Below, piece after piece: positions 17,148 to 61,329 of a stretch of 64,000 nt of DNA. The stretch's first letter is position 1; the number at the start of each line of letters is the position of its first letter. This stretch comes from Mesorhizobium terrae (GTDB taxonomy: Bacteria > Pseudomonadota > Alphaproteobacteria > Rhizobiales > Rhizobiaceae). The position numbers were made by a program, and so were the translations under genes. The notes below the pieces were generated by a model. That model was not told the DNA's origin, searched no databases, and was given only the letters and a program-made list of their open reading frames with translations. The stretch lies in the NCBI RefSeq assembly GCF_008727715.1, contig NZ_CP044218.1, forward strand, positions 1,612,001 to 1,676,000, in the 5' to 3' direction.

Positions 17148-17198
17148 CGTCTACGTCATCCGGCCCAGCGCGTTAACGACGCCCCGCATACGACCAAA

Positions 17199-17224: not shown

Positions 17225-17247
17225 TAGCACGCGAGATATCAGAAAGA

Positions 17248-41374: not shown

Positions 41375-42142
41375 ATGAGCCTCGCGCGCCTGCAGAAGGA
41401 AACACCAACCAATTTGCCCTTCTATGAAGAGCGCGTCGATCTTGCCTGCGCGTTCCGCTGGACGGCGCGGCTCAACATGCACGAAGCCGTGGCGAACCAT
41501 TTCTCGCTGGCCGTCAACGATGACGGCACGCGCTTCCTGATGAACCCCAACCAGGTGCATTTCTCGCGCGTCAAGGCAAGCGATCTGCTTTTGATCGACG
41601 CCAACGATCCCGAAACGCTGGAAGGCCCCAACGCTCCCGATCCGACCGCCTGGGGCCTGCACGGCGCCATCCACCGCCGGGTGCCGCATGCGCGCTGCGT
41701 GATGCACGTGCATTCGATCCATGCCACCGTACTCGCCTCGCTGGCCGACTCGACATTGCCGCCGATCGACCAGAACACGGCTGGTTTCTTCAACCGCTAT
41801 GTCGTCGACGGGCATTATGGCGGCCTGGCTTTCGAGGAAGAGGGCGAGCGCTGTTCGCAGCTGCTGGCCGATCCCAAGCACAAGGTGATGATCATGGGCA
41901 ATCACGGCGTGCTGGTGATCGGCGATACGGTGGCGGATGCCTTCAACCGCATGTTCTATTTCGAACGGGCGGCCGAAACCTACATCAAGGCCCTGTGGAC
42001 CGGGCGGCCGCTGCGCGTGCTTTCCGACGCGATCGCCGAAAAGACGGCCGCCGAAATGGACGACTATCCCGGCCAGGCCGAACGGCATCTGGCGGAGTTG
42101 AAGGCAATCCTCGACGAGCAGGAACCTGTCTACCGCAACTGA
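41375..42142 (+). CDS. Class II aldolase/adducin family protein
   Basis: 255-aa zinc-dependent aldolase-fold protein. Metal ligands are likely the histidines in MHVHSIHATV and the one in GNHGVLVIGDT. Family members are fuculose-phosphate aldolase-type enzymes or decarboxylases; substrate is unknown. It is longer than sugar-phosphate aldolases and resembles the rhizobial adducin-like group. The HAD phosphatase gene downstream is convergent. Confidence 0.88.
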   Translation: MSLARLQKETPTNLPFYEERVDLACAFRWTARLNMHEAVANHFSLAVNDDGTRFLMNPNQVHFSRVKASDLLLIDANDPETLEGPNAPDPTAWGLHGAIHRRVPHARCVMHVHSIHATVLASLADSTLPPIDQNTAGFFNRYVVDGHYGGLAFEEEGERCSQLLADPKHKVMIMGNHGVLVIGDTVADAFNRMFYFERAAETYIKALWTGRPLRVLSDAIAEKTAAEMDDYPGQAERHLAELKAILDEQEPVYRN

Positions 42143-42869: not shown

Positions 42870-44285
42870 TCAGCGGAAGAAAACGAAGCCGATGACGACG
42901 AAGGCCGGAATGAGTATCGCGCCGGACCATAGCATATAGCCGAAAAAACCGGGCATCTTGACGCCCTGGTGGCGCGCGATGGCATAGACCATGAAATTCG
43001 GCGCGTTGCCGATATAGGTGTTGGCGCCCATGAAGACGGCGCCAGCCGAGATCGCGGCCAAGGTCTTCGCCAGCCCCGTCATCATGTGTTGCGCGTCACC
43101 GCCGGCCAGTTCGAAGAAGACGAGATAGGTCGGCGCATTGTCGAGGAACGAGGACAAGGCGCCGGTCAGCCAGAAATAGGCGAGATTGTCGGGCGCGCCA
43201 TCCGCCCCGGTCACCAGGGCAACGAGCGGCGCCAGCCCGCCGTTGGTGCCCGCCTTGAGGATGGCGATCACCGGGACGATACAAACGAAAATGGCGGCGA
43301 ACAGTTTCGCCACTTCGGCGATCGGCCCCCAGGCGAAGCCGTTGGCCTGGCGGTATTCCTTGCGCGACACCGCCAGCGACAGCAAGGCCAGCGCCATTAT
43401 CAGTGCGTCACGCACCAGGTTCTGCAGTTCGACCGCGACACCCAGCACGGAAAGCTCGACGCCCGGCTTCCAATAGGCCGACAAAAGGATCGCGCCGATG
43501 ACACCGGCCAGCAGCGGCAGATTGGCCAGGCCACGGATGCGCACCCTGGAATCCGGCGTCGGGTCCTTGATTTTTGGCTGCCCGGCCTCGCGCCGATGCA
43601 AGACCAGATCAAGCGCCAGAAAAGCCGCCAGAACGATGACGCCGGCAAGCAAGGTCTGCTGCCAGATATGCGTCGTCGTCCAGAAGAAGTCGACGCCGCG
43701 CAGGAAACCGACGAACAGCGGCGGGTCGCCGAGCGGCGTCAGCGCGCCGCCGATGTTGGAGACCAGGAAAATGAAGAAGATGACGACATGGGCGTTGAAC
43801 GGCCGGTTGTCGTTGGCGCGGATGACCGGGCGGATCATGATCATCGACGCACCGGTGGTGCCTACCACGGAAGCAAGCAGCGCGCCCAGCAGCAGGAGGC
43901 CGGCGTTGACGAGCGGCGTGCCATGGATGTTGCCGGCGACCAGAATGCCGCCGGAAATGGTGAACAACGCAAACAAAAGCACGATGAACGACAGATATTC
44001 GGTGATGAGCGTGTGCAGAACGGCATTCACCGCCAGCCCCGGTCCAAAGACCAGCGCCAGTGGCACGACCACAAGCACGGCCCAAAGCCCGGCGATCTTG
44101 CCGTAGTGATGTTCCCACAGATGGTGGAACAGCAATGGTCCGGTGGCGATCGACAAAAGCAGTCCGGCAAACGGCAAGGCCCACCACAACGACATCGTCG
44201 TTCCCGGCAAACCCTCGGTAGCCGAGGCCGGCGCCGCTGCCAAAACACAGCACGCGACCAGCGCCACAATCTTCGAAATATGCAC
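42870..44285 (-). CDS. Sodium:proton antiporter-like membrane protein (IT superfamily)
   Basis: About 471 aa with a cleavable-looking N-terminus (IVALVACCVLAAAPASA) and roughly twelve membrane segments. Conserved stretches LTPLGDPPLFVGFLRG and SFLDNAPTYLVFFELAGG are signatures of the NhaD/CitM-like ion transporter superfamily. Likely an Na+/H+ antiporter or related carboxylate carrier. The start is uncertain: GTG 44285 sits right after GGGGGAGG, so spacing is poor, but it opens onto the signal-like segment. Confidence 0.82.
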   Translation of the reverse strand: MHISKIVALVACCVLAAAPASATEGLPGTTMSLWWALPFAGLLLSIATGPLLFHHLWEHHYGKIAGLWAVLVVVPLALVFGPGLAVNAVLHTLITEYLSFIVLLFALFTISGGILVAGNIHGTPLVNAGLLLLGALLASVVGTTGASMIMIRPVIRANDNRPFNAHVVIFFIFLVSNIGGALTPLGDPPLFVGFLRGVDFFWTTTHIWQQTLLAGVIVLAAFLALDLVLHRREAGQPKIKDPTPDSRVRIRGLANLPLLAGVIGAILLSAYWKPGVELSVLGVAVELQNLVRDALIMALALLSLAVSRKEYRQANGFAWGPIAEVAKLFAAIFVCIVPVIAILKAGTNGGLAPLVALVTGADGAPDNLAYFWLTGALSSFLDNAPTYLVFFELAGGDAQHMMTGLAKTLAAISAGAVFMGANTYIGNAPNFMVYAIARHQGVKMPGFFGYMLWSGAILIPAFVVIGFVFFR

Positions 44286-44340
44286 CCTCCCCCAGCCCTT
44301 CACTTGCTTCAGCCGACTGCGTGCCGTTGCCTGGACACCA

Positions 44341-44940
44341 TCAGACCAAGGTGACGCCAGCGGCTCGCATGCGCCCGAGCATGGTGTCGACCGAACCATT
44401 CAGGTCGATGCCACGGCAGGCGTCGAGGCGTACCGTCGTGGCAAATCCCTGTTTAGCGGCGTCGAGTGCGGAGAAGGCCACGCAGAAATCCGTGGCGAGA
44501 CCGACCAGCGTGATCGCGCCGATGTTGCGCTCGCGCAAATAGCCGGCAAGGCCGGTCGGCGTGACATGGTCGTTCTCGAAGAAGGCGGAATAGCTGTCGA
44601 TGCCCGGGCGAAATCCCTTGCGGATGATCAGTTCGGCCTTGCTCCAGGCCAGGCCCGAATGGAAATCCGAGCCGATGCTGCCCTGGATGCAATGGTCCGG
44701 CCACAGGGTTTGCGGCCCGTAGGGCATTTCGATCATTTCGAAAGGCTGCTTGCCCGGATGGCTGGAAGCGAAGCTGGAATGGCCGGCCGGGTGCCAGTCC
44801 TGCGTCATCACCACGTGCTCGGCATTGCGGATCAGGTCGTTGACCAACGGGACGATCTCGTCGCCGCCCGTCACTGCAAGAGCGCCACCGGGACAAAAGT
44901 CGTTCTGCAGGTCGACGACGATCAGCGCTTCATCAGCCAT
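44341..44940 (-). CDS. pncA: Nicotinamidase
   Basis: 199-aa isochorismatase-fold amidase converting nicotinamide to nicotinate for NAD salvage. Catalytic Asp in IVVDLQNDFCPGG, metal ligands in TQDWHPAGHSSF, Lys in IIRKGFRPG and nucleophile Cys in LATDFCVAFSA are all present. It is divergent from the molybdenum hydroxylase operon, which includes a 6-hydroxynicotinate reductase homologue, so a link to nicotinate metabolism is possible but not shown. Confidence 0.95.
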   Translation of the reverse strand: MADEALIVVDLQNDFCPGGALAVTGGDEIVPLVNDLIRNAEHVVMTQDWHPAGHSSFASSHPGKQPFEMIEMPYGPQTLWPDHCIQGSIGSDFHSGLAWSKAELIIRKGFRPGIDSYSAFFENDHVTPTGLAGYLRERNIGAITLVGLATDFCVAFSALDAAKQGFATTVRLDACRGIDLNGSVDTMLGRMRAAGVTLV

Positions 44941-45066: not shown

Positions 45067-45107
45067 TTGACAAAGACCACCATGCTGATATCATTTGCAT
45101 ACGAATG
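45067..45107 (+). promoter_or_regulatory. Promoter and palindromic operator of the molybdenum hydroxylase operon
   Basis: Consensus-like -35 TTGACA (45067-45072), 16-nt spacer and -10 TATCAT (45089-45094). The palindrome CATTTGCATACGAATG (45092-45107) overlaps the -10 and start site, as expected for repression. It lies 72 bp before the first gene. A close copy lies at 56193-56208. Confidence 0.6.
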
Positions 45108-45178: not shown

Positions 45179-46039
45179 GTGATCCGTTACGCGAAACCCG
45201 CCACACTCGACCAGGCGCTCACGCTGCTCGGCGAAACCTCGTGGCGCGTGCTTGCCGGCAGCACTGATTTCTACCCTGCGCAAGGCAACCGCCCGATCCG
45301 CGAAAACATTCTCGATATCAACGGCATTGCCGCCCTGCGCGGCGTGACCGAGACCGACACGCATTGGCTGATCGGCGCCCGCACGACCTGGAGCGATATC
45401 ATCCAGCAGCCGCTTCCCGCAGCCTTTGACGCACTGAAGCAGGCGGCGCGCGAGGTTGGTTCGCCACAGATCCAGAACGTCGCAACGATAGCAGGCAATC
45501 TGTGCAACGCCTCGCCCGCAGCCGACGGCGTACCGGCCTTGCTTACGCTCGACGCCGAGGTGGAATTGCGATCGCAAGCATCTAGTCGTCACCTGCCGCT
45601 CTCCGCCTTTGTTCTTGGCAACCGCCGCACCGCGCGTAAACCCAACGAACTGGTCACTGCAATCCGTGTGTCCAAGGCAAGTGCGACCGGGACATCGGCC
45701 TTCGTCAAGCTCGGTGCACGGCGCTACCTGGTGATCTCGATTGCCATGGCGGCGGCAAGGCTGATCATCGACGACGGCATCGTCCAGCAGGCGGCGATCG
45801 CGGTCGGGGCGTGTTCGGCCGTGGCGACACGGTTGCCGGACCTGGAACGGATGCTCGTTGGCCGCCCCGCGGATCGGCAGCTCGCCGATATTGCCAACAT
45901 CGCCCCGATGCCGCAGCTGTCGCCAATCGACGATGTCCGCGGCTCCGCCGGCTACCGGCTGGAAGCGGCGCACCGGATCGTCGCCCGCGCGATCGACAGC
46001 GCCGCTGGCCTGCCGCACCAGACGGAGGTGGCGGCATGA
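45179..46039 (+). CDS. Xanthine dehydrogenase family FAD-binding subunit
   Basis: 286-aa medium subunit (CoxM/XdhB type). N-terminal FAD domain: [20 protein letters not shown] and the [20 protein letters not shown] loop, which holds flavin phosphates; C-terminal CO-dehydrogenase flavoprotein domain follows. It passes electrons from the 2Fe-2S clusters of its partner. The start is GTG 45179. The stop overlaps the start of the fused iron-sulfur/molybdenum subunit gene (ATGA). Confidence 0.9.
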
Positions 46040-48810
46040 GTATGGAGCGCGCCGACATCACCTTCCTGGTCAACGCCGCGCCCGTCACCGTCAGCGTGCC
46101 GCCGGTCTCCCGACTGTCTTGCGTTCTGCGCGACGAGTTGCGGCTCACCGGCACCAAGGTCGGCTGCGATGCCGGCGATTGCGGCGCCTGCACCGTGCTG
46201 GTCGACGGCCAACCTGTCTGCGCCTGCCTGACGCCGGCCGCCGCCGTCGCCGGGGCGGCGGTGACCACGGTCGAGGGGCTGGCGAATGGGCGCCTGTCGG
46301 CGCTGCAAGCGTCGTTTCTCAGGCACGGCGCGGCACAATGCGGCATCTGCACGCCCGGCCTGCTGGTGACCGCGACGGCGTTGCTGGAGAAAAATCCGCA
46401 CCCCAGCGAGGCGGAGGTGCGGGATGCGCTGGGCGGAATCCTGTGCCGCTGCACCGGCTACCGCAAGATCATCGCCGCCGTCATGGACGTGGCGGCGATG
46501 GAACTTGCCCACCGCGACACCGATCTCGATTTCCGCCTGCCGGAGGCTGGAAAGGCCGTTGGCGCCTCGCCCATTCGGCTGGATGGCGTGCCGAAAGTAA
46601 CAGGCGCCGAAAAGTTCGGCGGCGATTCCTTTCCCGAAAACGCGCTGGCAGTGCTTGTGCTGCGCTCGCCGCACCACCATGCCCGCTTCGCCTTTGGCGA
46701 TCTTGATGCCTGGGTAAAGGCACATCCCGGCGTGGCCGGCATTTTCACCGCCGCCGACATTCCGGGAAGGAACCGGTTCGGCGTCATCCCGGCTTTTGCC
46801 GATCAACCGGCGCTGGCGGAAGGCATGGCGCGGTTCCGTGGCGAAGCGGTGGCGCTGATCGCGGCCGAACGCGCGGTCGCCGGCGATCTCGACCTCGGCG
46901 ATTTTCCCATCGAATGGGCGCAGGAACCACACACGCTTTCGATGGAAGAGGCCCTCGCCGACGGGGCGAGTTTGATCCATCAGGATCGCGTCGCCAATCT
47001 GCTGACCAAGGGGCTTGTCGAGCGCGGCACGCCGGAGGAAGCCCTCGCGCAGGCCTTCATCACCGCATCGAGCCGCATCGAAACCTCTTTCGTCGAACAC
47101 GCCTATATCGAACCGGAGGCCGGTTTTGCCTATCTGGACGGTGACACACTGGTCGTCGTGGCCTGCACGCAGGCGCCCTATATGGACCGCGACGATACTG
47201 CCCGCGTCCTCGGCATGCCGGCCGAAAAGGTGCGCATCGTGCCGACGGCGACCGGCGGCGGCTTCGGTTCCAAGCTCGACATCTCCGTACAGCCGCTGAT
47301 CGGCCTGGTAACGCTGAAGACCGGCCGACCGGCGGCACTCGCCTTCACGCGCACCGAATCGATGATGGCGACGACCAAACGCCACCCGGCGATCATGCGG
47401 GCAACGGCCGGCGCGAGCGCGGACGGCATCATCAGCGCCATGGTGTTCGACGCAGACTTCAACACCGGCGCGTATGCGAGCTGGGGACCGACGGTCGCCA
47501 ATCGCGTGCCGGTGCATGCGAGCGGCCCCTATGCGACGCCGCACTACCGGGCCGAAGGCCGTGCCATTCACACCAACGGACCAATTTCCGGCGCTTTCCG
47601 TGGCTTCGGCGTGCCGCAGGCAACGATCATACAGGAGGCGCTCTACGATCAGCTGGCCGACCGGCTCGGCATCGACCGGCTGGCCTTCCGCCTCCGCAAC
47701 TGTCTTCGGAACGGCTCCGAAACGGTTACCGGCCAGAAACTGGAGGCGGGTGTGGGCATCGGGGCCTGCCTTGAAGCGCTCGAACCGCATTGGGCGCGCG
47801 CCATGAGCGAGGCCGAGGCCTTCAATGCCGGCGAGGAGGCGAGACATTTCTCGAGGCGGCGCGGCGTCGGCATCGCCTCCTGCTGGTATGGCTGCGGCAA
47901 CACCTCGCTGCCCAACCCGTCCACCATCAGGGTTGGCATATCGCCGGCCGGAACCGTTATCCTGCATCAGGGTGCTGTCGACATCGGCCAGGGCTCCAAC
48001 ACCGTCATTGCCCAGATCTGCGCGGATGCGCTGGGGTTGCCGCTGGAAGCGTTTGTCTTGAAGGGCGCGGACACCGCGATCTCGCCGGACGCCGGCAAGA
48101 CATCCGCCTCGCGCCAGACCTTCGTCACCGGTAAGGCAGCCGAAAAGGCCGGCCGCACGCTGCGCGAAAGCATGCTGCGTTATGCCAATGTCTCCGATGC
48201 CGCGTCGTTTTCCCTCGATGGTGGCGCGCTTGTCATCCGCGAGGGCGATGCACGGCGTCGCATCGATCTCGTTGGCCTTCCGGCGGACGCGGACGGTTTC
48301 GTGTTCCGGGCCGAGGGGACCTACGACCCGCCCACCTCGCCGCTCGACGCCAAGGGACAAGGCAGTCCCTATGCCGTTTATGGCTACGGCGCGCAGATGG
48401 CCGAGCTCGAGGTGGATCTCGCGCTGGGCACGGTGAAATTGCTGAAGATCACCGCGGCCCACGATGTCGGCAAGGCGATCAACCCGATCCTGGCCGAGGG
48501 TCAGATCGAAGGCGGTATCGCACAAGGTATCGGCATGGCGCTGATGGAAGAATACATTCCCGGCCGCACCGAGAACCTGCACGACTATCTGATCCCGACC
48601 ATCGGCGACGTGCCGCCGATCGAGACGATCCTGGTCGAGGTTCCCGATCCCGAGGGGCCGTTTGGCGCCAAGGGGCTGGGCGAACATTCGCTGATCCCGA
48701 CCGCGCCAGCCATCCTCAATGCCATCCGCCACGCCACCGGCGTGACGATGACGAAGGTGCCGGCGACGCCGTCGCGGGTGCTCGCGGCAATCCAGGCGGC
48801 ATCGCGATGA
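46036..48810 (+). CDS. Molybdenum hydroxylase, fused 2Fe-2S and molybdopterin subunits
   Basis: 924-aa fusion. Residues 1-160 form the small subunit: plant-type cluster ligands C44, C49, C52, C64, then C102, C105, C137, C139 (CGICTPG, CRCTGY). From about 185 on is the Mo subunit with [21 protein letters not shown] and the likely catalytic Glu in [10 protein letters not shown]. The enzyme class hydroxylates N-heterocycles or aldehydes with water. Separate small and large subunits are more common; the S-L fusion with a free FAD subunit is less usual. Substrate unknown. It overlaps the next gene by 4 nt. Confidence 0.92.
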
Positions 48811-50342
48811 GCGAACTGGCCGAACGCTTCGAAACCCACGACCCCGGCGAGAAGTCGGTTGCGGAGAAGATCCGCTGCGATGCCTGCCCGGTTATGTGCT
48901 ACATCGCCGACGGTCGCAGCGGCGCCTGCGACCGCTATGGAAATCGCGACGGCCGCATCGTGCGGCTCGATCCGCTGACGATCCTCGACCATGCCGCAGA
49001 GACCGGGCAGCCGGTTGTGCCCTTCGGCGCCGAGGGAGAAGCCTGGGCCGGCGAACTCGTCAACACCGGCCGGCGCTTTGTGACGGCGATCGGTGCTGGC
49101 ACCACCTATCCCGACTACAAGCCGGCGCCATTCATCGTCAGCCAGGAGGTCGAGGGCGTCGATCTCGTCACGGTAGTGACCGAAGGCATCTTCTCCTACT
49201 GCGGCGTCAAGGTGAAGATCGACACCGACCGCCATATCGGCGACGAGACGGCAACCGTGCGGTCGGCGGGCGAAGCGATCGGCCATATCACCACCGGCGA
49301 ATACGGTTCGCAGATGCTGTCGCTCGGCGGCGTGCATCATCTGACCGGCGGGTCCAAGGCGGAAGGCCGTGCCACTTGCGACGCGCTTCTGGCATTGTGC
49401 AACAAGCAACCGGTCGAGCTTACCATCGACGGCGGTGCCAGCATCGTCGTGCAGGCAGGCAAGGCGCCGGTAATCGACGGCCAACTGGAACAGCGCATGC
49501 GGGTCGGTTGCGGGTCGGCCACCATCGGCATGTTCGCGGCGCAATGGCGCGGGCTGGTCGACGAGGTCGTCGTCGTCGACGATCACATCACCGGCGTCGT
49601 TTCCGAACACCAGGCGGGCAAGGTGCTGGGCTGGGCCGACACGGGCATCCGCATCATTGGGCGCCGCTCGACGCCCGGCCGCTATTTCAAGGTATCGGAA
49701 CCCGGGCTCGGCTGGGGCGGCACGACCATCGACGACCCGCTGTCCATTCTGGGTCCATGGAACGCGGCGAAAGGCGCGCGGCCGGGCCTGTCGCTGCTGA
49801 TGGTCTCCACCACCGGCGAGCAGTTTGCCTATTACGAACTGGACGAGGCATTGCGACCGATTGAAAAACCGTTCCCGGAGCGGCTCGGCAAATCGGTCTC
49901 GCTCATTGAGGAGAATTGTGAACCGGCGCTGTGTACGGTGCTGTTCGTCGGCGGCGCCGGCGGCAGCCTGAGAGCCGGCGTGACCGAAAACCCGGTCAAC
50001 TTGACCCGCTCCGTGCAACGTCTGGAAACCTATGTCACCGTCGGAGGCGCCCCGGTCTATGTCTGGCCGGGCGGCGGTATCACCCTGATGGTCGACGTCA
50101 GCCGCGTGCCGGACGGTGCCTTCGGCTACGTGCCGACACCGGCGCTGGTGGCGCCGATCGAATTCACGCTGCGCCGCGACGACTATCTGAGGCTCGGCGG
50201 CTACGAGGCGGAAATCCGCAGCCTTGCCGACGTCTTCGCGCATGGCGGCGAATATCTTAACGCGCGCCGCAGCGCCGCTGCGCCAGGCGAAAATCCCTGG
50301 CCACCGCTGGTGCAGTTGCGACAGGGCGGAAGCGCGCGATGA
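48807..50342 (+). CDS. 6-hydroxynicotinate reductase-like iron-sulfur protein
   Basis: 511 aa. The N-terminus carries C24-x2-C27-x3-C31-x9-C41 ([20 protein letters not shown]), a likely [4Fe-4S] site. The rest, with [30 protein letters not shown] and [15 protein letters not shown], matches the 6-hydroxynicotinate reductase family first known from Eubacterium nicotinate fermentation, where it reduces the pyridone ring with ferredoxin. Many alphaproteobacterial members are uncharacterised. ATGA overlaps at both ends tie it to the Mo hydroxylase and the UPF0280 gene. Confidence 0.83.
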
Positions 50343-51247
50343 ACGCCCCCGAAGCGCACTGGCTGGCCGATGGGCGCCGGCTTCATCTCCATCATGGGCC
50401 GATAGACCTGATCATCGAAGCCTTTGGTGACGGGACCGAAATGCGGGTCGCATATGAACAGGCGGCGGCACGCTTCCAGACGATCCTGCCCGAACTGGTG
50501 ACCGAACTGCCGGCACTACGGCAACCGTCCGCGTTAAAACCTCGCGATTTCGCCGACCCCACCGCGCGGCGTATGGAGGCGGCGGTGTCGCCGCTGGCAA
50601 GAACCTTCATCACGCCGATGGCCGCGGTTGCCGGATCGGTCGCCGACGAGGTACTGGCAGCGATGCTGCGCGGCCGCAATCTCCAACGCGCCTATGTCAA
50701 CAATGGCGGCGACAGCGCGTTGCACCTCGCGCCGGGCCAATCGATGACACTGGCCATTGCCGGAACCGGACACGGCTTTTCCGACCGCATCCTGGTGCGC
50801 GCCGAAGACGCCGTGCGTGGCATTGCGACCAGCGGCTGGCGCGGCCGCTCCTTTTCGCTCGGCATTGCCGACGCGGTGACGGTTCTGGCACGCAATGGCG
50901 CCGAGGCCGACGCGGCGGCAACGCTGATTGCCAATGCCGTCGACCTGCCCGGCCATCCAGCAATCTCCCGGCGTCCAGCGCTTGCTCTGGCCCCCGACAG
51001 CGATCTCGGCGACCGGCTGGTCACGACCGGCGTCGGGACGCTCTCGCGCCAAGAAACCGCCAAGGCACTGGACAGTGGCCTGGCCGTCGCCGAAGACTTT
51101 CGGCAGCGCGGGCTGATCGAAGCAGCGGCCTTGTTTCTCAACGGCGCGGTCGCGGTCAGTGGAGAGATCGAACCGACCTCCCACTGCGACCACTCGCCAT
51201 TCCTTTCAACCGACAGATCGACCGCCAAGGACCCAGCCCATGCCTGA
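50339..51247 (+). CDS. UPF0280 family protein (ApbE-like fold)
   Basis: 302-aa protein of UPF0280. It resembles the FMN transferase ApbE fold (MAAVAGSVADEVLAAM, YVNNGGDSALHL, GIATSGWRGRSFSLGIADAV). ApbE attaches FMN to proteins, so a flavinylation or flavin-handling role for the reductase next door is possible. Function is not established. Overlaps the reductase gene by 4 nt and the next gene by 8 nt. Confidence 0.85.
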   Translation: MNAPEAHWLADGRRLHLHHGPIDLIIEAFGDGTEMRVAYEQAAARFQTILPELVTELPALRQPSALKPRDFADPTARRMEAAVSPLARTFITPMAAVAGSVADEVLAAMLRGRNLQRAYVNNGGDSALHLAPGQSMTLAIAGTGHGFSDRILVRAEDAVRGIATSGWRGRSFSLGIADAVTVLARNGAEADAAATLIANAVDLPGHPAISRRPALALAPDSDLGDRLVTTGVGTLSRQETAKALDSGLAVAEDFRQRGLIEAAALFLNGAVAVSGEIEPTSHCDHSPFLSTDRSTAKDPAHA

Positions 51248-51824
51248 ATTTCCCATTCGAAAAATCGCCGTGCTGAGCGAGGAGATCATCCATGACGGCG
51301 GGCCGGCGGCGAATATGCCGCGCCGCCGCGCTGCGGCCATGGCCTTGGTCAAGAACCCCTTTGCCGGTCGCTATGAGGAGAAGCTGCAAGGCGCCATGGA
51401 CGACCTGAAACCTCTGGGGCTGCTGTTGACGGATCGACTGATCGCCGCACTCGGCGGCGACGCGCATATCATTGACGGCTACGGCAAGGGCGCCATCGTC
51501 GGCAGCGCCGGCGAATTGGAACATGGTGCGCTGTGGCACGCGCCGGGCGGCTATGCGATGCGCGAACGGCTGGGCGAAGCCAAGGCGATCGTGCCCTCGG
51601 CCAAGAAGGTGGGAGGCTTCGGCGCGCGGCTCGACGTGCCGATCGGCCATATCAACGCCGCCTATGTGCGCTCGCATTTCGACGCCATGGAGATCGGCAT
51701 CGCCGACGGGCCTCGCCCCGACGAAATCCTGTTCTGCCTTGTCATGACCTGCGGGCCGCGCATCCACAACCGCATGGGCGGCCTGGAGGCCAAGGACATC
51801 AAGTTGTGGGACGGCCAAAGATGA
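51240..51824 (+). CDS. Amino acid synthesis family protein (DUF1185)
   Basis: 194-aa protein of the DUF1185 / amino acid synthesis family. Recognisable segments are IRKIAVLSEEIIHDGG, GYGKGAIVGSAGELEHGA and VPIGHINAAYVRSHFDAME. Members often cluster with hydantoinases and transporters for amide compounds; enzymatic role unknown. The start overlaps the UPF0280 gene end, and the stop overlaps the MarR start by 4 nt. Confidence 0.85.
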   Translation: MPEFPIRKIAVLSEEIIHDGGPAANMPRRRAAAMALVKNPFAGRYEEKLQGAMDDLKPLGLLLTDRLIAALGGDAHIIDGYGKGAIVGSAGELEHGALWHAPGGYAMRERLGEAKAIVPSAKKVGGFGARLDVPIGHINAAYVRSHFDAMEIGIADGPRPDEILFCLVMTCGPRIHNRMGGLEAKDIKLWDGQR

Positions 51825-52279
51825 CGGCCAGCAAGGCGCCGCTGACGCTCGTCGACCACGACGAGGCGGATGAAATCTATCATCTGCAAGACCAGGTCGG
51901 CTTCGTGCTGCGCAAGGCGCACCAGCGGCACCTGTCGATCTTCGCTTCGCGTATCGCAGACCTGACGCCGCCGCAATTCGCGGCGCTGGCCAGGCTCCAC
52001 GAGGTTGGCGAAACCTCGCAGAATCAGCTCGGCCAGATGATTGCCATGGATGCCGCCACCGTGAAGGGGGTCATCGACCGGCTGAAATCGCGCGGCTATG
52101 TCGATCTCAAGAAACACGAGACTGACAAGCGGCTGCTTTTGGTGTCGCTGACGGCTGCCGGGCGTAAGGCCATCGAACAACTCATACCGTTGGCGAAGGC
52201 CATCACCGGCGAGACCCTGGCGCCGCTGTCGGCCAGGGAGGCGGCGCAGTTCCTGCGCCTGCTGGCCAAGATCGCGTAA
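51821..52279 (+). CDS. MarR family transcriptional regulator
   Basis: 152-aa winged-helix regulator. The MarR core is clear: LTPPQFAALARLHEVGETSQ, NQLGQMIAMDAATVKGVIDR as recognition region and the wing LKSRGYVDLKKHETDKRLLL. It ends the molybdenum hydroxylase operon (ATGA overlap), so it probably regulates that operon and the hydantoinase pair through the palindromes at 45092 and 56193. Its ligand is likely a pathway substrate; that is inference. Confidence 0.92.
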   Translation: MTASKAPLTLVDHDEADEIYHLQDQVGFVLRKAHQRHLSIFASRIADLTPPQFAALARLHEVGETSQNQLGQMIAMDAATVKGVIDRLKSRGYVDLKKHETDKRLLLVSLTAAGRKAIEQLIPLAKAITGETLAPLSAREAAQFLRLLAKIA

Positions 52280-52319
52280 TCCACCGCTTCGTGTGCTGCG
52301 CCCGGGTGCATCCGACGGA

Positions 52320-52338
52320 CGTCAGCCCGAAGCTGACG
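52320..52338. terminator. Hairpin between convergent MarR and hydantoinase genes
   Basis: Perfect 7-bp stem CGTCAGC / GCTGACG with a 5-nt loop in the 69-bp convergent gap. No clear T run follows, so termination is tentative. Confidence 0.35.
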
Positions 52339-52348
52339 GTTGTTCGCG

Positions 52349-54043
52349 CTACGGCTCGATGCCGAACATCTTCTTCGCCTGGCTTGCCGTGTAGTAGCCC
52401 TGCGCCACATCGTGGCGGACCGCTTCGGGATCGCGCTTGCGCGGATCGCCATAACCGCCGCCGCCGGGTGTCTCGACGCGAACGCGGTCGCCCGCCTTCA
52501 GCGGGATGTCCTGTTCCTTGGAAAGATGCTGCGGCACATGCTCCTTGCCATCGCGGATCACCGTCACCGTGTTGACGGCGCCGTCGCGACCGCCCAGCAC
52601 GCCTTGCGGACCAAAGCGGCCGTGATCCATGACGAAAGAGGCACGCGCCTCGCCACGCAGCAACTCGACCTCATAGGCCAGCCCGAAGCCGCCACGATGG
52701 CGCCCCGCGCCGCCGGAGCCTTCACGCAACGCGTAGTGACGGTAGAGCACCGGGAAAGCCTGTTCCATGATCTCGACCGGCGGCGACTTGGAAATGCCAA
52801 TGGTCGAGCAGCCGTTGGCAAGCCCGTCGTGACGGGCGTTGCCGCCATAACCGCCGCCGGAAATCTGGTACATGACATAGTCGCGGCCGCGAGCCGGATC
52901 GTGGCCGCCGAGCGCGAAATTGCCGCTCGACCCAGCAGGCGCCGCCGTCACCTTGTCCGGGAGTGCCTGCACCATGGCCGCGAAAACCGCTTCCGCGATG
53001 CGCTGCGAGACTTCCGCCGCGCAACCGGAAACCGGGCGCGGATAGCTGGCATCGAGGAAAGTGCCTTCCGGGCGCTTGACGATCAACGGCTCGAAAGCGC
53101 CGGCGCTGATCGGCACATCCGGAAAGATATGGCGCATGGCGAGATAGACCGACGACAGCGTCGTGGCGAGCACGCTGTTCATCGGCCCGGCGCAGGGTTT
53201 CGATGAACCTCCGAAATCGAAAGTCAGCGTGTCGCCCTTCTTCTCCACGGCAAGCGCGATGGTCAGCGGTTCGTCGACGACGCCGTCGGAATCGACATAG
53301 GCCTTAGAGCGGTAGATGCCATCGGCGATGGCCGCTATGTTGGCACGCATCTGCTCGGCGGCGCGCTGGCGTAATTCCGCGACCGCTGCAGAGACGGTTT
53401 CGTCTCCGTAACGATCTAGGATTTCGTTGAGCCTGTCCTGCCCGACAAGCAGGGCGGCGGCCTGCGCTTTGATATCGCCGATGCGCTGGTCGGCGACACG
53501 GATGTTGGAACAGATGATGGCGTAAATCTCGGGATCGAGCACGCCTTTCTTGAACAGCTTGACTGGCGGCAGGCGCAGCCCTTCCTGTTCGACGGCGGTG
53601 GCGGAGGCGGAAAAACCGCCTGGCACGGCGCCACCAATATCCGGCCAATGGCCCGTGTTGGAGAGCCAGCAGAAGATCGCGCCGCCGCGATAGATGGGCA
53701 TGGCGAAGCGCACATCCATGAGATGCGTGCCGCCGAGATAAGGATCGTTGACGATGTAGATGTCGCCCGGTTCCGGTGGCAGGCAGCGGCCAGCGGCGAT
53801 CATCTCGATGACGATCCGGGTTGAGTACTGCATGACGCCGACGAAGACCGGCAGGCCTTGCGAGCCTTGCGCGATCAACGCGCCGTCAACGGCCGAATAG
53901 ATGCCGTCGGAACGATCGTTGGCTTCAGCGATGACCGGCGAGAAAGCGGCGCGCGAAAAGGTCAGGTCCATCTCGTCGCAGACCTGCTGCAGACCCGCCT
54001 GTATGACGGAAAGTGTAATGGCATCGAGGCTGATATGCGTCAT
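52349..54043 (-). CDS. Hydantoinase B/5-oxoprolinase beta-type subunit
   Basis: 564-aa HyuB-family protein, the partner of HyuA in ATP-dependent opening of cyclic amides (5-oxoproline, N-methylhydantoin) or in acetone/acetophenone carboxylase relatives. Motifs GDIYIVNDPYLGGTHLMD and the C-terminal GGAGRHRGGFGLAYEVELL and PGGGGYGDP are typical. Its start overlaps the hyuA stop by 4 nt. The substrate cannot be read from sequence. Confidence 0.92.
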   Translation of the reverse strand: MTHISLDAITLSVIQAGLQQVCDEMDLTFSRAAFSPVIAEANDRSDGIYSAVDGALIAQGSQGLPVFVGVMQYSTRIVIEMIAAGRCLPPEPGDIYIVNDPYLGGTHLMDVRFAMPIYRGGAIFCWLSNTGHWPDIGGAVPGGFSASATAVEQEGLRLPPVKLFKKGVLDPEIYAIICSNIRVADQRIGDIKAQAAALLVGQDRLNEILDRYGDETVSAAVAELRQRAAEQMRANIAAIADGIYRSKAYVDSDGVVDEPLTIALAVEKKGDTLTFDFGGSSKPCAGPMNSVLATTLSSVYLAMRHIFPDVPISAGAFEPLIVKRPEGTFLDASYPRPVSGCAAEVSQRIAEAVFAAMVQALPDKVTAAPAGSSGNFALGGHDPARGRDYVMYQISGGGYGGNARHDGLANGCSTIGISKSPPVEIMEQAFPVLYRHYALREGSGGAGRHRGGFGLAYEVELLRGEARASFVMDHGRFGPQGVLGGRDGAVNTVTVIRDGKEHVPQHLSKEQDIPLKAGDRVRVETPGGGGYGDPRKRDPEAVRHDVAQGYYTASQAKKMFGIEP

Positions 54044-56112
54044 CGGCTGCCCACCTCGACGATCAGATTGCCGTCGGCATCGCTGGTTGCCCTGTCGCCC
54101 GGCTCGAGCACGGTGGTGGCATCCATCTGCTCGATGATCGCCGGGCCCTCGATCTCCGCCTCGAGTGGCAGTTTTTCGCGGGCATAAACCGGCGTGTCGC
54201 GCCAGACGCCGTCATACCAGACCAGGCGAACCTCGGCGCGGGCCTCGGCCAGCTTGCTGGCGCGGCCAGCGGGGTCGATCAGCGTCGACAGATCGATCTG
54301 CGGCCGCACACCGGTAACCGAGGTGTTCAGATTGACGAGATTGGCGCGGATTTCCGGCAGCTCGACCTTGAAGCGGACAAAATAGGCCTTTTCGAAAAGC
54401 CCCTGCAGGGTGGCGCGGTCGACCCGCGCCGATGGCAGCGGCACATTGATCAGGTGGGTCTGGCCGACGAACTGCATGTCAGCGGAATGGCTGACGCGGA
54501 CCGCCTGTGGCTTCACCGCTTCCTTGGCGATCAGGCTTTCACCCTCGGCGCGATGCGCCTCGAGGATCTGTTCCACGCGCTTTTCGTCGATGCTGGCGAC
54601 GGGCTGGTTCAGCGTGTTGACGAAGTCGTGCCTCATATCGGCGACGACGCAGCCTAGCGCATTGGTGATGCCCGGCCGTGCTGGCACCAGCACGCGCGGC
54701 AGGCCAAGCTCGCGCGCCAGCGCGCTGGCGTGCAACGGACCGGCCCCGCCGAAGGCGAACAGCGTGAAGTCGCGCGGGTCGTGGCCGCGGCCAACCGACA
54801 CCATACGGATGGCGCCTGCCATCTTGATATTGGCCAGCCTCAGCACCGCGCCGGCCGCCTCGACGCCGGAGAGGCCGGTGAACAGGCCGATCTTGTCCTC
54901 GAATATCCGGGTCACGCTTTCGACGCTGACAGGATTGTCGACGGCGAGCAGTTTTTTCGGCGCCAGGCGACCGAGCACCAGATTGGCATCGGTGATGGTT
55001 GGCAGCTTGCCTCCGCGCCCGTAGCAGATCGGGCCGGGACTGGCACCGGCGCTTTCCGGCCCGACGCGGATCAGGCCGGCCGCGTCGACACGCGCGATCG
55101 AGCCGCCGCCGGCGCCGACCGTGTGCACAGCCACCATCGGCACGTGGATCGGCATGGCGTATTCCAGCTCGATCTCGTTGGAGACAGCCGGTTCGGCATC
55201 GCGGATCAGCGCCACATCGGTGGAGGTGCCGCCCATGTCATAGGTGACAAGGTTACGGTGGTCGGCACGGCGACCGGTATAGGCGGCGGCGATCACACCG
55301 GAGGCCGGACCAGACATCACCGTCTTGGCGGCTTCGTGGGCGACGAAACGCGCCGAGATCATGCCGCCATTGCCGTTCATGATGAGGAAGTCGCGCTTAT
55401 AGCCCTGGCCGGCGAGTTCATCGCGCAGCCGGGCGACATAACGCTCAAGGATCGGCTGCACGGCGGCGTTGACGGAGGCCGTCACGCCGCGCTCGAATTC
55501 GCGCGCTTCGGACAAAAGCGTGTGACCGACGGTGATATGGCCGTTCGGCCAGAGCTCGGCGGCGATCTCGGCGGCGCGGCGCTCGTGCAGCGGGTTGGCA
55601 TAGGAATGCAGGAAATGGATGACGAGCGATTCACAGCCTGCCGCCAGCAACCAACGTACCGCATGCCGCACACCCTCCTCGTCAAGCGGGACACGCACCC
55701 GGCCCGACGCTTCCACGCGCTCGTCGATTTCGAGACGCAAGAGACGCGGGATAACCGGCTCGAAGGTACCGGTCATACCATAGGCCTGCGGCCGGGTGCG
55801 CCGGCCGAGTTCGATGATGTCGCGGAAACCAGCCGTTGTGATCATGCCGGTCCGGGCCAGCCTGCGCTCCAGCACGGCGTTGGTAGTGGTGGTGGTGCCG
55901 TGGACGATCAGGTCAATGTCGGCGGGGCTGACGCCGGTGGCGCCGAGCGCCGAGACGACGCCGAAGGCCTGATTGTCGAGCGTGGTCGGCGTCTTGGCGA
56001 TGCGGACCTTGCCGCCATCGCGGCCATCGATCAGGATCAGGTCGGTAAATGTGCCGCCAACGTCGATGCCGGCGACGACATTGTCCGATTGCGCCGGAAC
56101 TTTCTCATTCAT
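54040..56112 (-). CDS. Hydantoinase A/5-oxoprolinase alpha-type subunit
   Basis: 690-aa HyuA-family protein with ASKHA ATPase fold. N-terminal nucleotide motif GIDVGGTFTDLILIDG, HGTTTTTNAVLERR, then YDMGGTSTDVALI and FGGAGPLHASALA. It phosphorylates a cyclic amide so that HyuB can hydrolyse it. Start ATG 56112 (MNEKVPAQSDN); a 21-codon upstream extension is open but not conserved-looking. The palindrome at 56193-56208 lies 81 bp upstream. Confidence 0.93.
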   Translation of the reverse strand: MNEKVPAQSDNVVAGIDVGGTFTDLILIDGRDGGKVRIAKTPTTLDNQAFGVVSALGATGVSPADIDLIVHGTTTTTNAVLERRLARTGMITTAGFRDIIELGRRTRPQAYGMTGTFEPVIPRLLRLEIDERVEASGRVRVPLDEEGVRHAVRWLLAAGCESLVIHFLHSYANPLHERRAAEIAAELWPNGHITVGHTLLSEAREFERGVTASVNAAVQPILERYVARLRDELAGQGYKRDFLIMNGNGGMISARFVAHEAAKTVMSGPASGVIAAAYTGRRADHRNLVTYDMGGTSTDVALIRDAEPAVSNEIELEYAMPIHVPMVAVHTVGAGGGSIARVDAAGLIRVGPESAGASPGPICYGRGGKLPTITDANLVLGRLAPKKLLAVDNPVSVESVTRIFEDKIGLFTGLSGVEAAGAVLRLANIKMAGAIRMVSVGRGHDPRDFTLFAFGGAGPLHASALARELGLPRVLVPARPGITNALGCVVADMRHDFVNTLNQPVASIDEKRVEQILEAHRAEGESLIAKEAVKPQAVRVSHSADMQFVGQTHLINVPLPSARVDRATLQGLFEKAYFVRFKVELPEIRANLVNLNTSVTGVRPQIDLSTLIDPAGRASKLAEARAEVRLVWYDGVWRDTPVYAREKLPLEAEIEGPAIIEQMDATTVLEPGDRATSDADGNLIVEVGSR

Positions 56113-56179: not shown

Positions 56180-56209
56180 TTGACGCTAAGATCATTTGTA
56201 TACTAATAG
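56180..56209. promoter_or_regulatory. Palindromic operator upstream of the hydantoinase genes and fpr
   Basis: CATTTGTATACTAATA (56193-56208), centred on the perfect GTATAC, nearly copies the operator at 45092-45107 (13 of 16 bases). On the plus strand it lies within a possible promoter (TTGACG 56180-56185, 18 nt, TAATAG 56204-56209) that could serve fpr. On the minus strand it lies 81 bp before hyuA. Confidence 0.5.
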
Positions 56210-57196: not shown

Positions 57197-58194
57197 CATT
57201 TCACAGCCTTGCCGTCCGCATCGAAACGGTAGGTCTTGGCCGGATCCGGCGTGGCATAAAGCGTCGACCCCGGCTCGGCGTTGTAGACGCCGAAGATGCG
57301 CACCGTGATCAGGCCGGCTTTTTCGCAATCGAGATAGACATTGGTGTCGGCACCGAGATGTTCGGTGTGCACGACCGTGCCTTTCCACGAACCGGACTTC
57401 GGATCGACGGTCAGATGTTCCGGGCGCACGCCGATGGTCTTGACGGTTTCGCCCAGCCGCGCGCCGTCAACGAAGTTCATCTTCGGCGAGCCGATGAAAC
57501 CGGCGACGAATTCATTGGCCGGCGACTGGTAAAGCTCCATCGGCGCGCCGATCTGCTCGATGCGGCCGGCATTCAGCACCACGATCTTGTCGGCCAGCGT
57601 CATTGCCTCGACCTGGTCGTGAGTGACGTAGATCATCGTCGCCTTGAGCCGGCGGTGCAGCTGCGCGATCTCGAGACGCGTGTTGACGCGCAGCGCGGCA
57701 TCCAGGTTCGACAGCGGCTCGTCGAACAGGAACAGCTTCGGCTCGCGCACCACGGCGCGGCCGATGGCGACGCGCTGGCGCTGGCCACCGGAAAGTTCGG
57801 CCGGGCGGCGCTTGAGGTAGGGTTCCAGCGAAAGCATGGCGGATGCGGCGCCGATACGCTTGTCGATCTCGGCAGCCGGCTCGCCAGCCTGCTTGAGGCC
57901 GAGCGCCATGTTGTCGCGCACGCTGAGATGCGGATAGAGCGCATAGGTCTGGAACACCATGGCGATACCGCGCTTGGCCGGCGGCGTCGAAGTGACCTCC
58001 TGGCTATCGATCAGGACGCGGCCGGAGGAAGCGTCCTCCAGGCCGGCGATGACACGCAGCAGGGTCGACTTGCCACAGCCCGACGGGCCGACGAAGACGA
58101 CGAATTCGCCATCCTTCACGTCGAGGTCGATGCCCTTCAGCACGTCCACCGGCCCGAAGGATTTCTTCACATTCTCGATCTTCAGAGAGCCCAC
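57196..58194 (-). CDS. Sugar ABC transporter ATP-binding protein (UgpC/MsmK type)
   Basis: 332-aa ATPase: Walker [10 protein letters not shown], signature LSGGQRQR, Walker [13 protein letters not shown], switch His in [10 protein letters not shown], then a C-terminal OB-type (TOBE) regulatory domain. GTG 58194 gives the family start ([13 protein letters not shown]) with GAGGAAC upstream. Last gene of the amino-sugar-type operon, after the Gfo/Idh/MocA gene. Confidence 0.92.
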
Positions 58195-58214
58195 GGCTGT
58201 TCCTCGCTCGATTG

Positions 58215-59276
58215 CTAGAGTTTGACGGGATTGCCGGTGCGCACGCTTTCGTCGGCGGCAAGGCAGACGGCAAGCGAACGCACGGCATCGTCCATGTGGC
58301 GGGTGAGGTCGACATTCTCGCGAATGGCTTTCAGCACGAAAGCCTGTTCGAAATCGCACAATTCCTGGTGGCCCGGTTCGCCTTCCATGGAAAGCAGTTC
58401 GTCGGGTTTCAGGAACTTACCGTCGGCACCGGTCGCGGCCTGGTGCAGGCGGATGGTCGAGGTCTTGGTATGGGTGTCGATATCGTCCGACTTCACACCC
58501 TCGGCCATGACGATCGACACGCAGCCCTTCGGCGACATCACGTCCTTCACGAAGAAGGCGGTCTCCGAGATCATCGGGCCCCAACCGGCCTCATACCAGC
58601 CGACCGAACCGTCCTCGAACAGCACCTGCAAGTGACCGTAATTGTACATGGAGGGCGCCACCTCATCGGAGAGGCGCACGCCCATGCCACGCACTTCGAC
58701 GGGCGCGGAATCGGTGATCTGCAGCATGACGTCGAGATAATGGACGCCGCAATCGACGATCGGCGAGGTGGTCTGCATCAACTGCTTGTGCGTCTGCCAG
58801 GTATGGCCGGACGACTGCTGGTTGAGGTTCATGCGGAACACATAAGGGCCGCCCAGCTTGCGGGCCTCGGCGATCAGCCGCACCCAGGACGGGTGATGGC
58901 GCAGGATATAGCCGATCACCAGCTTCTTGCCGTTGGCCTTGGCGGCGTCGACCACCCGGCGCGCATCGGCGACCGTGGTGGCCAGCGGCTTCTCGACGAA
59001 GACATGGCAGCCAGCCTCGAAGGCGTGCACCGCATAGTCGGCATGGCTGTCCGAATAGGTGGCGATGCAGGCAAGGTCCGGTTTCTCGTCGCGCAGTGCG
59101 TCCTCGAACGAACGACGGATCTCGTGACCCGCCAGCCCGCCGGGCAGCGGCACGTCCGAACGGTTGACGAGGGCCGCAATCTCGAAGCCCGGATTGTTGT
59201 AGTAGGCCAGCGCGTGGCTGCGGCCCATATTGCCCAGGCCGGCAACGACAACGCGGAGGGGTTTGGTCGAAGTCAC
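58215..59276 (-). CDS. Gfo/Idh/MocA family oxidoreductase
   Basis: 353-aa NAD(P)-dependent sugar oxidoreductase. The N-terminal Rossmann motif is [18 protein letters not shown], the catalytic Lys is in [12 protein letters not shown], and the His/Asp region is [15 protein letters not shown]. It probably oxidises or epimerises the imported sugar or an intermediate; exact reaction unknown. Located between the permease and ATPase genes, a position often seen in rhizobial sugar operons. Confidence 0.9.
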
Positions 59277-59324
59277 TTTGATGTCCTGTGTCGGGTTTCT
59301 TTGTTGTTGCTTTGAGGACGGCGC

Positions 59325-60164
59325 TTACTTCACCGCGCCTGAGGTGATGCCGCGGATGAGCTGCCGCGAGAAGATCAGATAGAGGACCAGCACCGGCAGG
59401 ATCGCCAGCGACAGCGCCGCCAGGATAGCGTTCCAGTTGGTAACGAACTGGCCAAGGAAGATCTGCGCGCCGAGCGTCACCGTCTTGGTGGCCTCCGACG
59501 GCGCCAGGATCAGCGGGAACCACAGATCGTTCCAGATCGGGATCATGGTGAACACGGCGACCGTGGCCATGGCCGGGCGGACCAGCGGCAACACCAGCCT
59601 GAAGAAGATCGTGTATTCGGAGAGCCCGTCGATGCGGCCGGCATTTTTTAGATCGTCCGACACGCCCTTCATGAATTCCGAAAGAATGAAGATAGCGAGC
59701 GGCAGGCCCTGTGCGGTGTAGACCAGGATCAGTGCCGTCAACGTGTTGACCAGCCCCGAAGCCACCATCAGCTGCAGGATGGCGACAGTACCGAGGCGGA
59801 TCGGGATCATGATGCCGAGCGCCAGGTACAAGCCCATCAGCGTGTTGCCGCGGAAGCGGTATTCCGACAGGGCGAAGGCGGCCATGGCGCCGAACAGCAG
59901 CACGAAGAACAGCGAGACGACGGTGACGATCAGGCTGTTCTGGAAATAGAGGAAGAAATCGCCCTGGCCGAACACGGTGGTGTAGCCGATCAGGTCGAAG
60001 GTCTTCGGCGTCGGCGGCGTCAGCGGCTGCTGAAAGATCGCCTGGCGCGACTTGAACGAGTTGATGACGACGACGAAGACCGGGAACAGCGCGATGACGG
60101 TGTAGGTCAAAAGGATCGCGTGCGCGCCGATCGTGCGCGGCAGGGAAGAGGTGGCCTTACTCAT
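59325..60164 (-). CDS. Carbohydrate ABC transporter permease (MalG type)
   Basis: 279-aa permease of the carbohydrate uptake class 1 family with six expected helices. EAA loop residues lie in NAGRIDGLSEYTIFFRLVLP. It pairs with the MalF-type permease gene, whose stop is about 10 nt before this start. It ends in an ITSGAVK tail typical of MalG-like proteins. Confidence 0.92.
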   Translation of the reverse strand: MSKATSSLPRTIGAHAILLTYTVIALFPVFVVVINSFKSRQAIFQQPLTPPTPKTFDLIGYTTVFGQGDFFLYFQNSLIVTVVSLFFVLLFGAMAAFALSEYRFRGNTLMGLYLALGIMIPIRLGTVAILQLMVASGLVNTLTALILVYTAQGLPLAIFILSEFMKGVSDDLKNAGRIDGLSEYTIFFRLVLPLVRPAMATVAVFTMIPIWNDLWFPLILAPSEATKTVTLGAQIFLGQFVTNWNAILAALSLAILPVLVLYLIFSRQLIRGITSGAVK

Positions 60165-60174
60165 CGTGACGCCC

Positions 60175-61098: not shown

Positions 61099-61291
61099 GA
61101 GTTCGGTCCTTACCGCCTCGGGTGTCGCCGTCAAATTGTGAGAATGCCGCCCCTCGCCTGCCCGCCGAGATTTTCCCCGAACATCCGGGGAAACGACAGA
61201 CATGAAGCCGGCGCCCCTTCTCCAGTCTTCAAAGGAAGAGCGTAAGGGCGAGGAACCGCGCCGACAATCAGAATCTACAGTTCGGGACAGG

Positions 61292-61316: not shown

Positions 61317-61329
61317 TCGTTTCACAGTC

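Follow-up and report, generated by a model that had tools for sequence, protein, structure and literature searches.

A HyuAB pair as the probable ATP-dependent ring opener in a nicotinate-type gene cluster of Mesorhizobium terrae

The window investigated in this study is a stretch of 64,000 nucleotides from Mesorhizobium terrae (NZ_CP044218.1, positions 1,612,001 to 1,676,000), which harbors a gene cluster around hnr, the gene for a 6-hydroxynicotinate reductase homologue (Hnr). The cluster is a real, probably co-regulated catabolic unit of the nicotinate type, in which the two-subunit HyuAB of the ATP-dependent lactamase family very probably replaces the enamidase that is found in many other hnr clusters. 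It is moreover likely that all genes belong to one MarR-controlled regulon for the breakdown of nicotinamide and nicotinate via the reductive route, with HyuAB as ATP-driven opener of the ring. Gene content, linkage, a shared operator-like sequence, the mutual exclusion of HyuAB and enamidase, catalytic motifs and the ApbE fold of the UPF0280 protein were computed; from these we infer the reactions and their intermediates, the binding of MarR, the path of the electrons and what UPF0280 and PF06684 do.

In the proposed route, PncA would convert nicotinamide to nicotinate, and the FAD/FeS-Mo enzyme would hydroxylate the latter to 6-hydroxynicotinate, which may relieve repression by MarR at both operators. 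Hnr would reduce 6-hydroxynicotinate to the delta-lactam 1,4,5,6-tetrahydro-6-oxonicotinate (THON) with NADPH electrons delivered via a ferredoxin-NADP reductase (FNR). The lactam would then be opened by HyuAB and ATP, HyuA activating the amide and the metal site of HyuB hydrolysing it, a step that is carried out elsewhere by an ATP-independent enamidase. Opening would give 2-(aminomethylene)glutarate and subsequently 2-formylglutarate and ammonia; PF06684 may carry the product on towards glutarate, while UPF0280 may mature the flavin site of Hnr.

Organization of the cluster

The genome (6.02 Mb, two contigs) has a completeness rated 100%. Its main operon comprises six plus-strand genes with successive overlaps of 4, 4, 4, 8 and 4 nt in the order FAD subunit, FeS-Mo subunit, Hnr, UPF0280, PF06684 and MarR, and converges with hyuB and hyuA on the minus strand (52349-56112):

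44341-44940, minus strand: pncA, nicotinamidase (forms nicotinate from nicotinamide), in divergent orientation to the main operon; NCBIfam NF008623
45179-46039, plus strand: FAD subunit of a xanthine-dehydrogenase-type Mo hydroxylase; PF00941, PF03450
46036-48810, plus strand: fused 2x[2Fe-2S] and Mo-cofactor subunit; PF01799, PF02738, PF20256
48807-50342, plus strand: hnr, 6-hydroxynicotinate reductase homologue; named "6-hydroxynicotinate reductase" in the source
50339-51247, plus strand: UPF0280 protein with ApbE (flavin transferase) fold
51240-51824, plus strand: PF06684 protein (DUF1185, "AA_synth"); PF06684 3.2e-67, 3byq 3.4e-56
51821-52279, plus strand: MarR-family regulator, BpsR-like
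52349-54043, minus strand: hyuB, metal-site subunit, ATP-dependent lactamase family; PF02538
54040-56112, minus strand: hyuA, ATP-binding subunit; PF05378, PF01968, PF19278
56312-57139, plus strand: FNR, divergent from hyuA; 2bgi 7e-103

The open reading frames and family matches confirm the locus at positions 45179 to 56112, where the initial annotation of this DNA had placed it, and its convergence on an A/B pair. The overlaps of 4 to 8 nt described there are correct, but the count of five plus-strand genes has to be raised to six, because the Mo enzyme is encoded by two genes. Three genes lie outside that interval and were absent from the initial annotation, namely pncA, FNR and the gene for a CitMHS-type transporter behind pncA.

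Mutual exclusion of HyuAB and enamidase

The distribution of the two ring openers was compared in an order sample of 297 genomes, 74 of them with hnr, and in a class sample of 289 genomes, which contributed 43 hnr-containing genomes outside the order of M. terrae. The thresholds were placed at gaps in sequence identity, for HyuB at 68% (next match 59%) in the order and 65% (53%) in the class sample, and for enamidase at 71% (64%) and 70% (41%), respectively. The HyuB matches of G184, G185, G224 and G360 are partial. In the order sample, in which up to four HyuB candidates were scored per genome, a HyuB orthologue is present in 31 of the 297 genomes, and 30 of these 31 also contain hnr; this figure pertains to the order sample alone, HyuB having been sought in the hnr-containing genomes of the class sample. 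The only HyuB without hnr is that of G185, a draft (about 240 contigs, 93% complete) that shares its genus code with the hnr-containing genomes G020 and G133. All eight hnr-containing genomes of the window's genus possess the HyuB orthologue. The initial annotation had raised the question of whether operon and hydantoinase pair occur independently: HyuB is nearly always accompanied by hnr, but hnr often occurs without HyuB, and in these cases an enamidase is found in 39 of 44 genomes of the order sample and in 17 of 17 of the class sample.

The enamidase is encoded next to hnr in other clusters as a protein of about 390 residues, which the match to 2VUN (2.4e-108) identifies as a true enamidase. 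In the order sample, 46 genomes contain it at 71% identity or more, 40 of them together with hnr. The 74 hnr-containing genomes divide into 29 with HyuB only, 39 with enamidase only, one with both and five with neither (Fisher p = 2e-14, relatedness ignored). The class sample replicates this exclusion with 26 HyuB and 17 enamidase genomes, none with both and none with neither. At the genus level HyuB is present in 10 and enamidase in 22 of 32 genera, including one with both and a further one with neither, and three of 23 families hold both types. The two enzymes were not found together within 10 kb of hnr in any of the 120 loci. A HyuB orthologue is thus present in 56 of the 117 hnr-containing alphaproteobacteria sampled, in which ring opening appears to be accomplished by a non-homologous, ATP-consuming enzyme; with such an opener in about half of them, the gene sets concerned should not be taken for incomplete enamidase pathways.

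On the best Hnr tree, whose 86 rows (two of them long-branched) represent 86 of the 117 hnr-containing genomes, the HyuAB/enamidase state changes at least eight times, and the strongly supported branches still require at least four changes for HyuAB and at least five for enamidase. In none of the independent pairs drawn from this tree did HyuAB and enamidase change in the same direction. In the HyuB tree (36 rows, with long-branch warnings) unlinked paralogues with 58-59% identity to the HyuB of the window stand apart from the hnr-linked class. Such HyuAB paralogues without a nearby hnr occur in four loci (L162-L165), two of which belong to the hnr-containing genomes G064 and G159 that have neither enzyme; they might be the ring opener there.

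The arrangement of hyuAB varies among the lineages. In other families (L118, L138, L150) a same-strand hyuA-hyuB pair is located upstream of FAD-Mo-hnr-MarR-UPF0280-PF06684, on a Pleomorphomonas plasmid hyuAB follows hnr-UPF0280-PF06684, and in Sagittula and Pseudosulfitobacter it stands after the FAD and Mo genes.

Operator-like sites and the MarR regulator

A comparison of the two divergent intergenic regions revealed the same imperfect palindrome in both of them:

45067-45094, plus strand: promoter-like TTGACA-N16-TATCAT, abutting the operator-like ATTTGCATACGAAT
45093-45106, plus strand: operator-like imperfect palindrome ATTTGCATACGAAT in the pncA-FAD intergenic region
56194-56207, plus strand: second operator-like site ATTTGTATACTAAT in the hyuA-FNR intergenic region

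Its conservation was investigated in 44 loci, mostly of close relatives, of which 38 have the divergent pncA-FAD region and 20 the hyuA-FNR region. In 36 of the 38 pncA-FAD regions the site has at most one mismatch, being exact in 28 and carrying a single mismatch in 8; the last two regions have two and four mismatches. The same level is attained in 18 of the 20 hyuA-FNR regions (10 exact, 8 with a single mismatch), and the remaining two again have two and four mismatches. Among the loci with both regions, 15 of 16 have the site with at most one mismatch in both. It is even kept, with one mismatch, upstream of hyuA in genomes where hyuAB is separated from hnr by about 97 kb (G136) and about 72 kb (G069). 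Scanning the window with up to two mismatches gave four matches, one of which is the same palindrome on the other strand, compared with 0.31 expected; four matches were reached in 0 of 100 shuffles. Across the genome, ATTTGYATACKAAT with at most one mismatch was found only at the two window sites, but this pattern was drawn from these very sites, so that finding both is by construction, and a control with the pattern reversed likewise matched the genome twice at this level (one forward, one reverse). The site count alone therefore proves nothing, and what speaks for the predicted operator is that the sequence is conserved, is located in each of the two divergent regions and has no further copies.

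The MarR protein of the operon is presumably the regulator of both sites. Its best match among PDB sequences is 2nnn from Pseudomonas aeruginosa, followed by 6pcp and 6pco, which we take to be Bordetella BpsR because numbering and residues fit PMC6837509. According to that study, the 6-hydroxynicotinate pocket of BpsR is composed of Tyr15, His23, Arg26 and His32. In the alignment to 6pcp/6pco, three of these four residues are retained as Tyr20, Arg31 and His37, and the MarRs of 98 hnr-linked loci show the tyrosine in 97, the arginine in 98 and the histidine in 82 cases (otherwise 13 Ala and 3 Asn). 2nnn retains Tyr and Arg and lacks the equivalent of His32, and Pseudomonas putida NicR is described in the same study as being without these residues (PMC6837509).

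The conservation of the shared site also bears on the idea that HyuAB is unrelated to the operon, that is, a hydantoinase or 5-oxoprolinase that is adjacent by chance or part of a sugar ABC operon. The opposite strand and the sometimes distant location of hyuAB in Mesorhizobium would fit this explanation, as would the sugar ABC genes beyond hyuAB, but the near-constant presence of hnr alongside the HyuB orthologue, the conserved operator-like site common to both transcription units and the same-strand arrangement with FAD-Mo-hnr elsewhere already disfavor it, and we regard it as very improbable. Membership in the sugar ABC operon can be dismissed, since the divergent FNR and the intergenic region intervene and the pair tracks hnr across genomes.

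Family and catalytic motifs of HyuAB

HyuA contains the motifs for ATP binding, namely DVGGTFTD at residue 17 and DMGGT at 292 (phosphate) and GASPGP at 356 (adenosine). The metal site of HyuB is represented by H107, D110 and H132 within DPYLGGTHLMD and HWPDIGG (His-x2-Asp plus His); inspection of the motifs did not locate the first Asp of the metal tetrad. The same ATP and metal residues are required by caprolactamase, as stated in PMC8453981. HyuAB resembles caprolactamase CapAB in its two-subunit organization, and the ATP-dependent lactamases in general in its ATP motifs and metal ligands. The likeness to CapAB, 5-oxoprolinase and N-methylhydantoinase is nevertheless one of family level only, with scores below the CapA and CapB cut-offs and a tie to hnr of its own. 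The reading of the initial annotation, in which hydroxylation and reduction are followed by opening of the lactam and an oxoprolinase-type pair substitutes for the enamidase, is supported by co-occurrence, mutual exclusion and the shared operator. We found no paper that joins "6-hydroxynicotinate" and "hydantoinase" in the open literature, subscription papers being outside the scope of this search. For HyuAB, which represents an orphan branch of the oxoprolinase family, THON is a candidate substrate open to direct testing.

Two other functions of HyuAB were considered. An ATP-dependent carboxylase of the acetophenone/acetone carboxylase type, acting at a downstream step, belongs to the same superfamily and is represented among the matches by 5l9w (4.7e-88). 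The nearest solved relative of HyuA by sequence is, in contrast, N-methylhydantoinase (8e-126), there are only two subunits, and the exclusion with enamidase speaks against such a role; this function is extremely improbable. The second alternative is that complete reduction of the ring, by Hnr or by a partner, yields 6-oxopiperidine-3-carboxylate, a saturated lactam whose opening needs ATP, so that HyuAB would mark a chemically different branch. It is consistent with the match of HyuA and HyuB to the caprolactamase family, which drives the opening of a saturated lactam with ATP according to PMC8453981. An extra ring reductase was, however, not recognized in the cluster, and the Hnr tree shows several switches between HyuAB and enamidase. 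Furthermore, no column of the Hnr alignment (469 columns, 39 versus 43 rows) cleanly separates the HyuAB from the enamidase group, the largest total-variation distance being 0.81, which favors an identical Hnr product in the two groups. We accordingly consider full reduction unlikely and THON opening by HyuAB the better explanation.

Substrate of the pathway

Four lines of evidence point to nicotinate as the substrate: the divergent pncA beside the shared operator, the alternation of HyuAB with the enamidase of the nicotinate pathway, the BpsR-like MarR, and the nicotinate cluster of Bradyrhizobiaceae strain SG-6C and Azorhizobium. PncA exceeds the cut-off of NF008623 (213 versus 174 bits), and the genome contains no other good match, the second best being 31% identical with an E-value of 8e-5. 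In 45 of the 120 loci and 14 of 57 genus labels, other families included, pncA lies at most 10 kb from hnr; this sample is biased to close relatives.

The hydroxylase allows for a different interpretation. Its XDH-type FAD and FeS-Mo subunits are both present, and Fe-S cysteine motifs and GLGE were found in the latter, but the enzyme scores below every curated cut-off shown. Moreover, Phe28 of MarR occupies the position of BpsR His23, so that the complete four-residue pocket is not retained, and the cluster enzymes are assigned to nicotinate by sequence comparison. The ring could hence be that of a related N-heterocycle that is degraded by the same logic of hydroxylation, reduction and opening. 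Against this stand the largely preserved BpsR-type pocket, the nicotinamidase gene next to the shared operator, the nicotinate-pathway enamidase as the alternative opener and the tie of the SG-6C/Azorhizobium cluster to nicotinate (PMC3511419); another ring is accordingly improbable, and nicotinate remains the preferred substrate.

The end product of the pathway in Azorhizobium is glutarate according to PMC3511419, citing Kitts 1992. In several hyuAB loci (L118, L150, L151, L167-L169) the cassette is followed by a type III CoA-transferase, whose best match is a succinate-glutarate CoA-transferase, below the cut-off (233 versus 750 bits). Its presence is in line with glutarate as end product.

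In some hnr clusters (L121:4834-8361 and others) the FAD/FeS-Mo pair is replaced by a Mo-cofactor protein with C-terminal cytochrome c domains, which makes the hydroxylation a second interchangeable step. The nicotinate hydroxylase NicB of Pseudomonas is likewise a Mo protein with cytochrome c domains.

Hnr and its accessory proteins

The N-terminal Cys4 motif of Hnr (C24, C27, C31, C41), already noticed in the initial annotation, is intact in all 86 aligned sequences including that of the window. A total of eight cysteines is invariant in this alignment and a ninth is present in 71 sequences. The family is large, with at least 7999 matches in a protein search, all of which passed. No Pfam or NCBIfam model matched Hnr, its AlphaFold model is poor (mean pLDDT 70.4) and gave no Foldseek match at E <= 0.001, and sequence searches of the PDB returned weak matches alone (E >= 0.11 in one search and >= 0.47 in another). 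FNR, the sole match in the genome at E <= 1e-10, lies no more than 10 kb from hnr in 39 of the 120 loci and is a candidate for the electron supply of Hnr.

The UPF0280 protein has the ApbE fold, and its Ser165 and Asp191 are invariant in 38 sequences; they were matched by eye to the ApbE set. The catalytic set of ApbE is a Ser-His-Asp triad (PMC12052999). A dedicated role in Hnr flavinylation is called into question by two findings that distinguish the system from ApbE/Ftp FMN transferases: the segment matching the general base contains no conserved His in the 38 sequences, and the ApbE target motif D-x-x-[ST]-G-A-[ST] is present in none of the 86 Hnr sequences. Flavinylation of Hnr by ApbE chemistry via the standard motif is rejected on the latter ground. 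UPF0280 is a lead, a candidate flavin-handling factor that may mature Hnr in a non-standard way. In 104 of the 120 loci the PF06684 gene is found at most 10 kb from hnr, and its product may act on the ring-opened compound.

Roles for three orphan families can be proposed on this basis within a widespread, ATP-consuming version of the reductive nicotinate route, with HyuAB as the lactam opener replacing enamidase, UPF0280 as a new type of ApbE-derived factor dedicated to Hnr that attaches or inserts its flavin, and PF06684 converting 2-formylglutarate towards glutarate. The combination of all three is tentative, and it may well be that not every one of them holds. It would nonetheless provide two families whose names are empty or misleading with candidate functions, one in maturing the flavin of an Fe-S ring reductase and the other in the reaction that follows opening of the ring. 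Our search of the open literature (subscription papers outside its scope) found no paper with the term "UPF0280".

Observations that weigh against the proposed regulon

Several further observations weigh against the proposed regulon with HyuAB as ring opener. Genome G098 contains both enzymes, and neither was found in five of the 74 hnr-containing genomes of the order sample (G032, G064, G159, G245, G246). The independent-pairs test comprises only four pairs on well-supported branches and thus cannot reach 0.05. HyuA and HyuB failed the equivalog test for caprolactamase CapAB, with 496 and 314 bits compared with an NCBIfam cut-off of 1000 each. The equivalent of BpsR His32 is missing in 16 of the 98 hnr-linked MarRs, and FNR, the only one found in the genome, may simply be a housekeeping enzyme.

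An unlinked enamidase homologue of 62-64% identity is furthermore present in the window genome (G000), G248 and G209. These three proteins were excluded from the counts; including them would give 26 genomes with HyuB only and four with both. In the remaining five hnr-containing genomes of this genus, no match to enamidase reaches E <= 1e-60. In the window there is no enamidase near hnr, and the 64% homologue of M. terrae is located about 3 Mb away in a different context, where its neighbors, two PF06684 genes, a PncA relative, an ABC transporter and a nucleoside hydrolase, make it look like part of another pathway, although it may provide a backup activity on THON.

This second locus (L156, G000:C2:4698000-4717900, approximately 8400-19000) lacks Hnr; its PncA-like hydrolase is 31% identical and its ABC transporter is of the BMP/PnrA type. 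Enamidase, two PF06684 genes, MarR and weak PncA-like matches recur in two more genomes of the genus (L157 and L158). Loci of this type possibly represent a pathway for a nucleoside-derived ring.

Relation to known nicotinate pathways

The initial annotation had proposed an undescribed N-heterocycle system. This is not supported, since a nicotinate cluster has been published and both pncA and the BpsR-like MarR point to nicotinate; the system is most likely a variant of the known Azorhizobium-type nicotinate route. PMC3511419 describes the cluster of Azorhizobium caulinodans and strain SG-6C with an Hnr homologue, the THON route and two conserved genes of unknown function. The window shares the Hnr homologue, the predicted first three nicotinate steps with the route via THON and two conserved genes of this kind, which suggests that the two published ones correspond to UPF0280 and PF06684. 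It differs by HyuAB, the XDH-type hydroxylase and the divergent pncA. The clusters of sample group g38 contain the enamidase, an ABC transporter and the Mo protein with cytochrome c domains.

With the nicotinate fermentation of Eubacterium barkeri, reported by Alhapel in 2006, the window shares the predicted hydroxylation, a putative 6-hydroxynicotinate reductase and the predicted lactam opening. The Hnr of this bacterium reportedly carries a covalent flavin and Fe-S clusters. The E. barkeri route is, unlike that of the window, an anaerobic fermentation with an enamidase and a four-subunit dehydrogenase. As regards the regulator, MarR resembles Bordetella BpsR in Tyr, Arg and one pocket His and deviates from it in the other one, which is replaced by Phe. 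The downstream route under the control of BpsR is a different one (nicC, nicE).

Neighboring genes and plasmid-located hnr

The lack of a transporter stated in the initial annotation holds true within the interval from 45179 to 56112, but not beyond it:

42870-44399, minus strand: CitMHS_2-type transporter ORF behind pncA; PF16980, 1.9e-188, true start probably within the ORF

This type of ORF adjoins pncA in many Mesorhizobium and Aminobacter loci, and a role in uptake or efflux is possible. A gene of the class II aldolase/adducin family (41375-42142), whose product exceeds the cut-off of NF005689, is located near CitMHS-pncA and also occurs in a 91% relative (L031). Past FNR, the minus strand contains sugar-type ABC genes (UgpC-like ATPase, two permeases, binding protein) and a GFO/IDH/MocA oxidoreductase (57199-62589), and nothing was found that would indicate their membership in the regulon.

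The hnr gene is present on 26 plasmid records, which PLSDB types as non-mobilizable (23), mobilizable (2) and conjugative (1). A betaproteobacterial plasmid of the Comamonadaceae (L114, CP099606.1) harbors the hnr-UPF0280-PF06684 cassette together with an enamidase.

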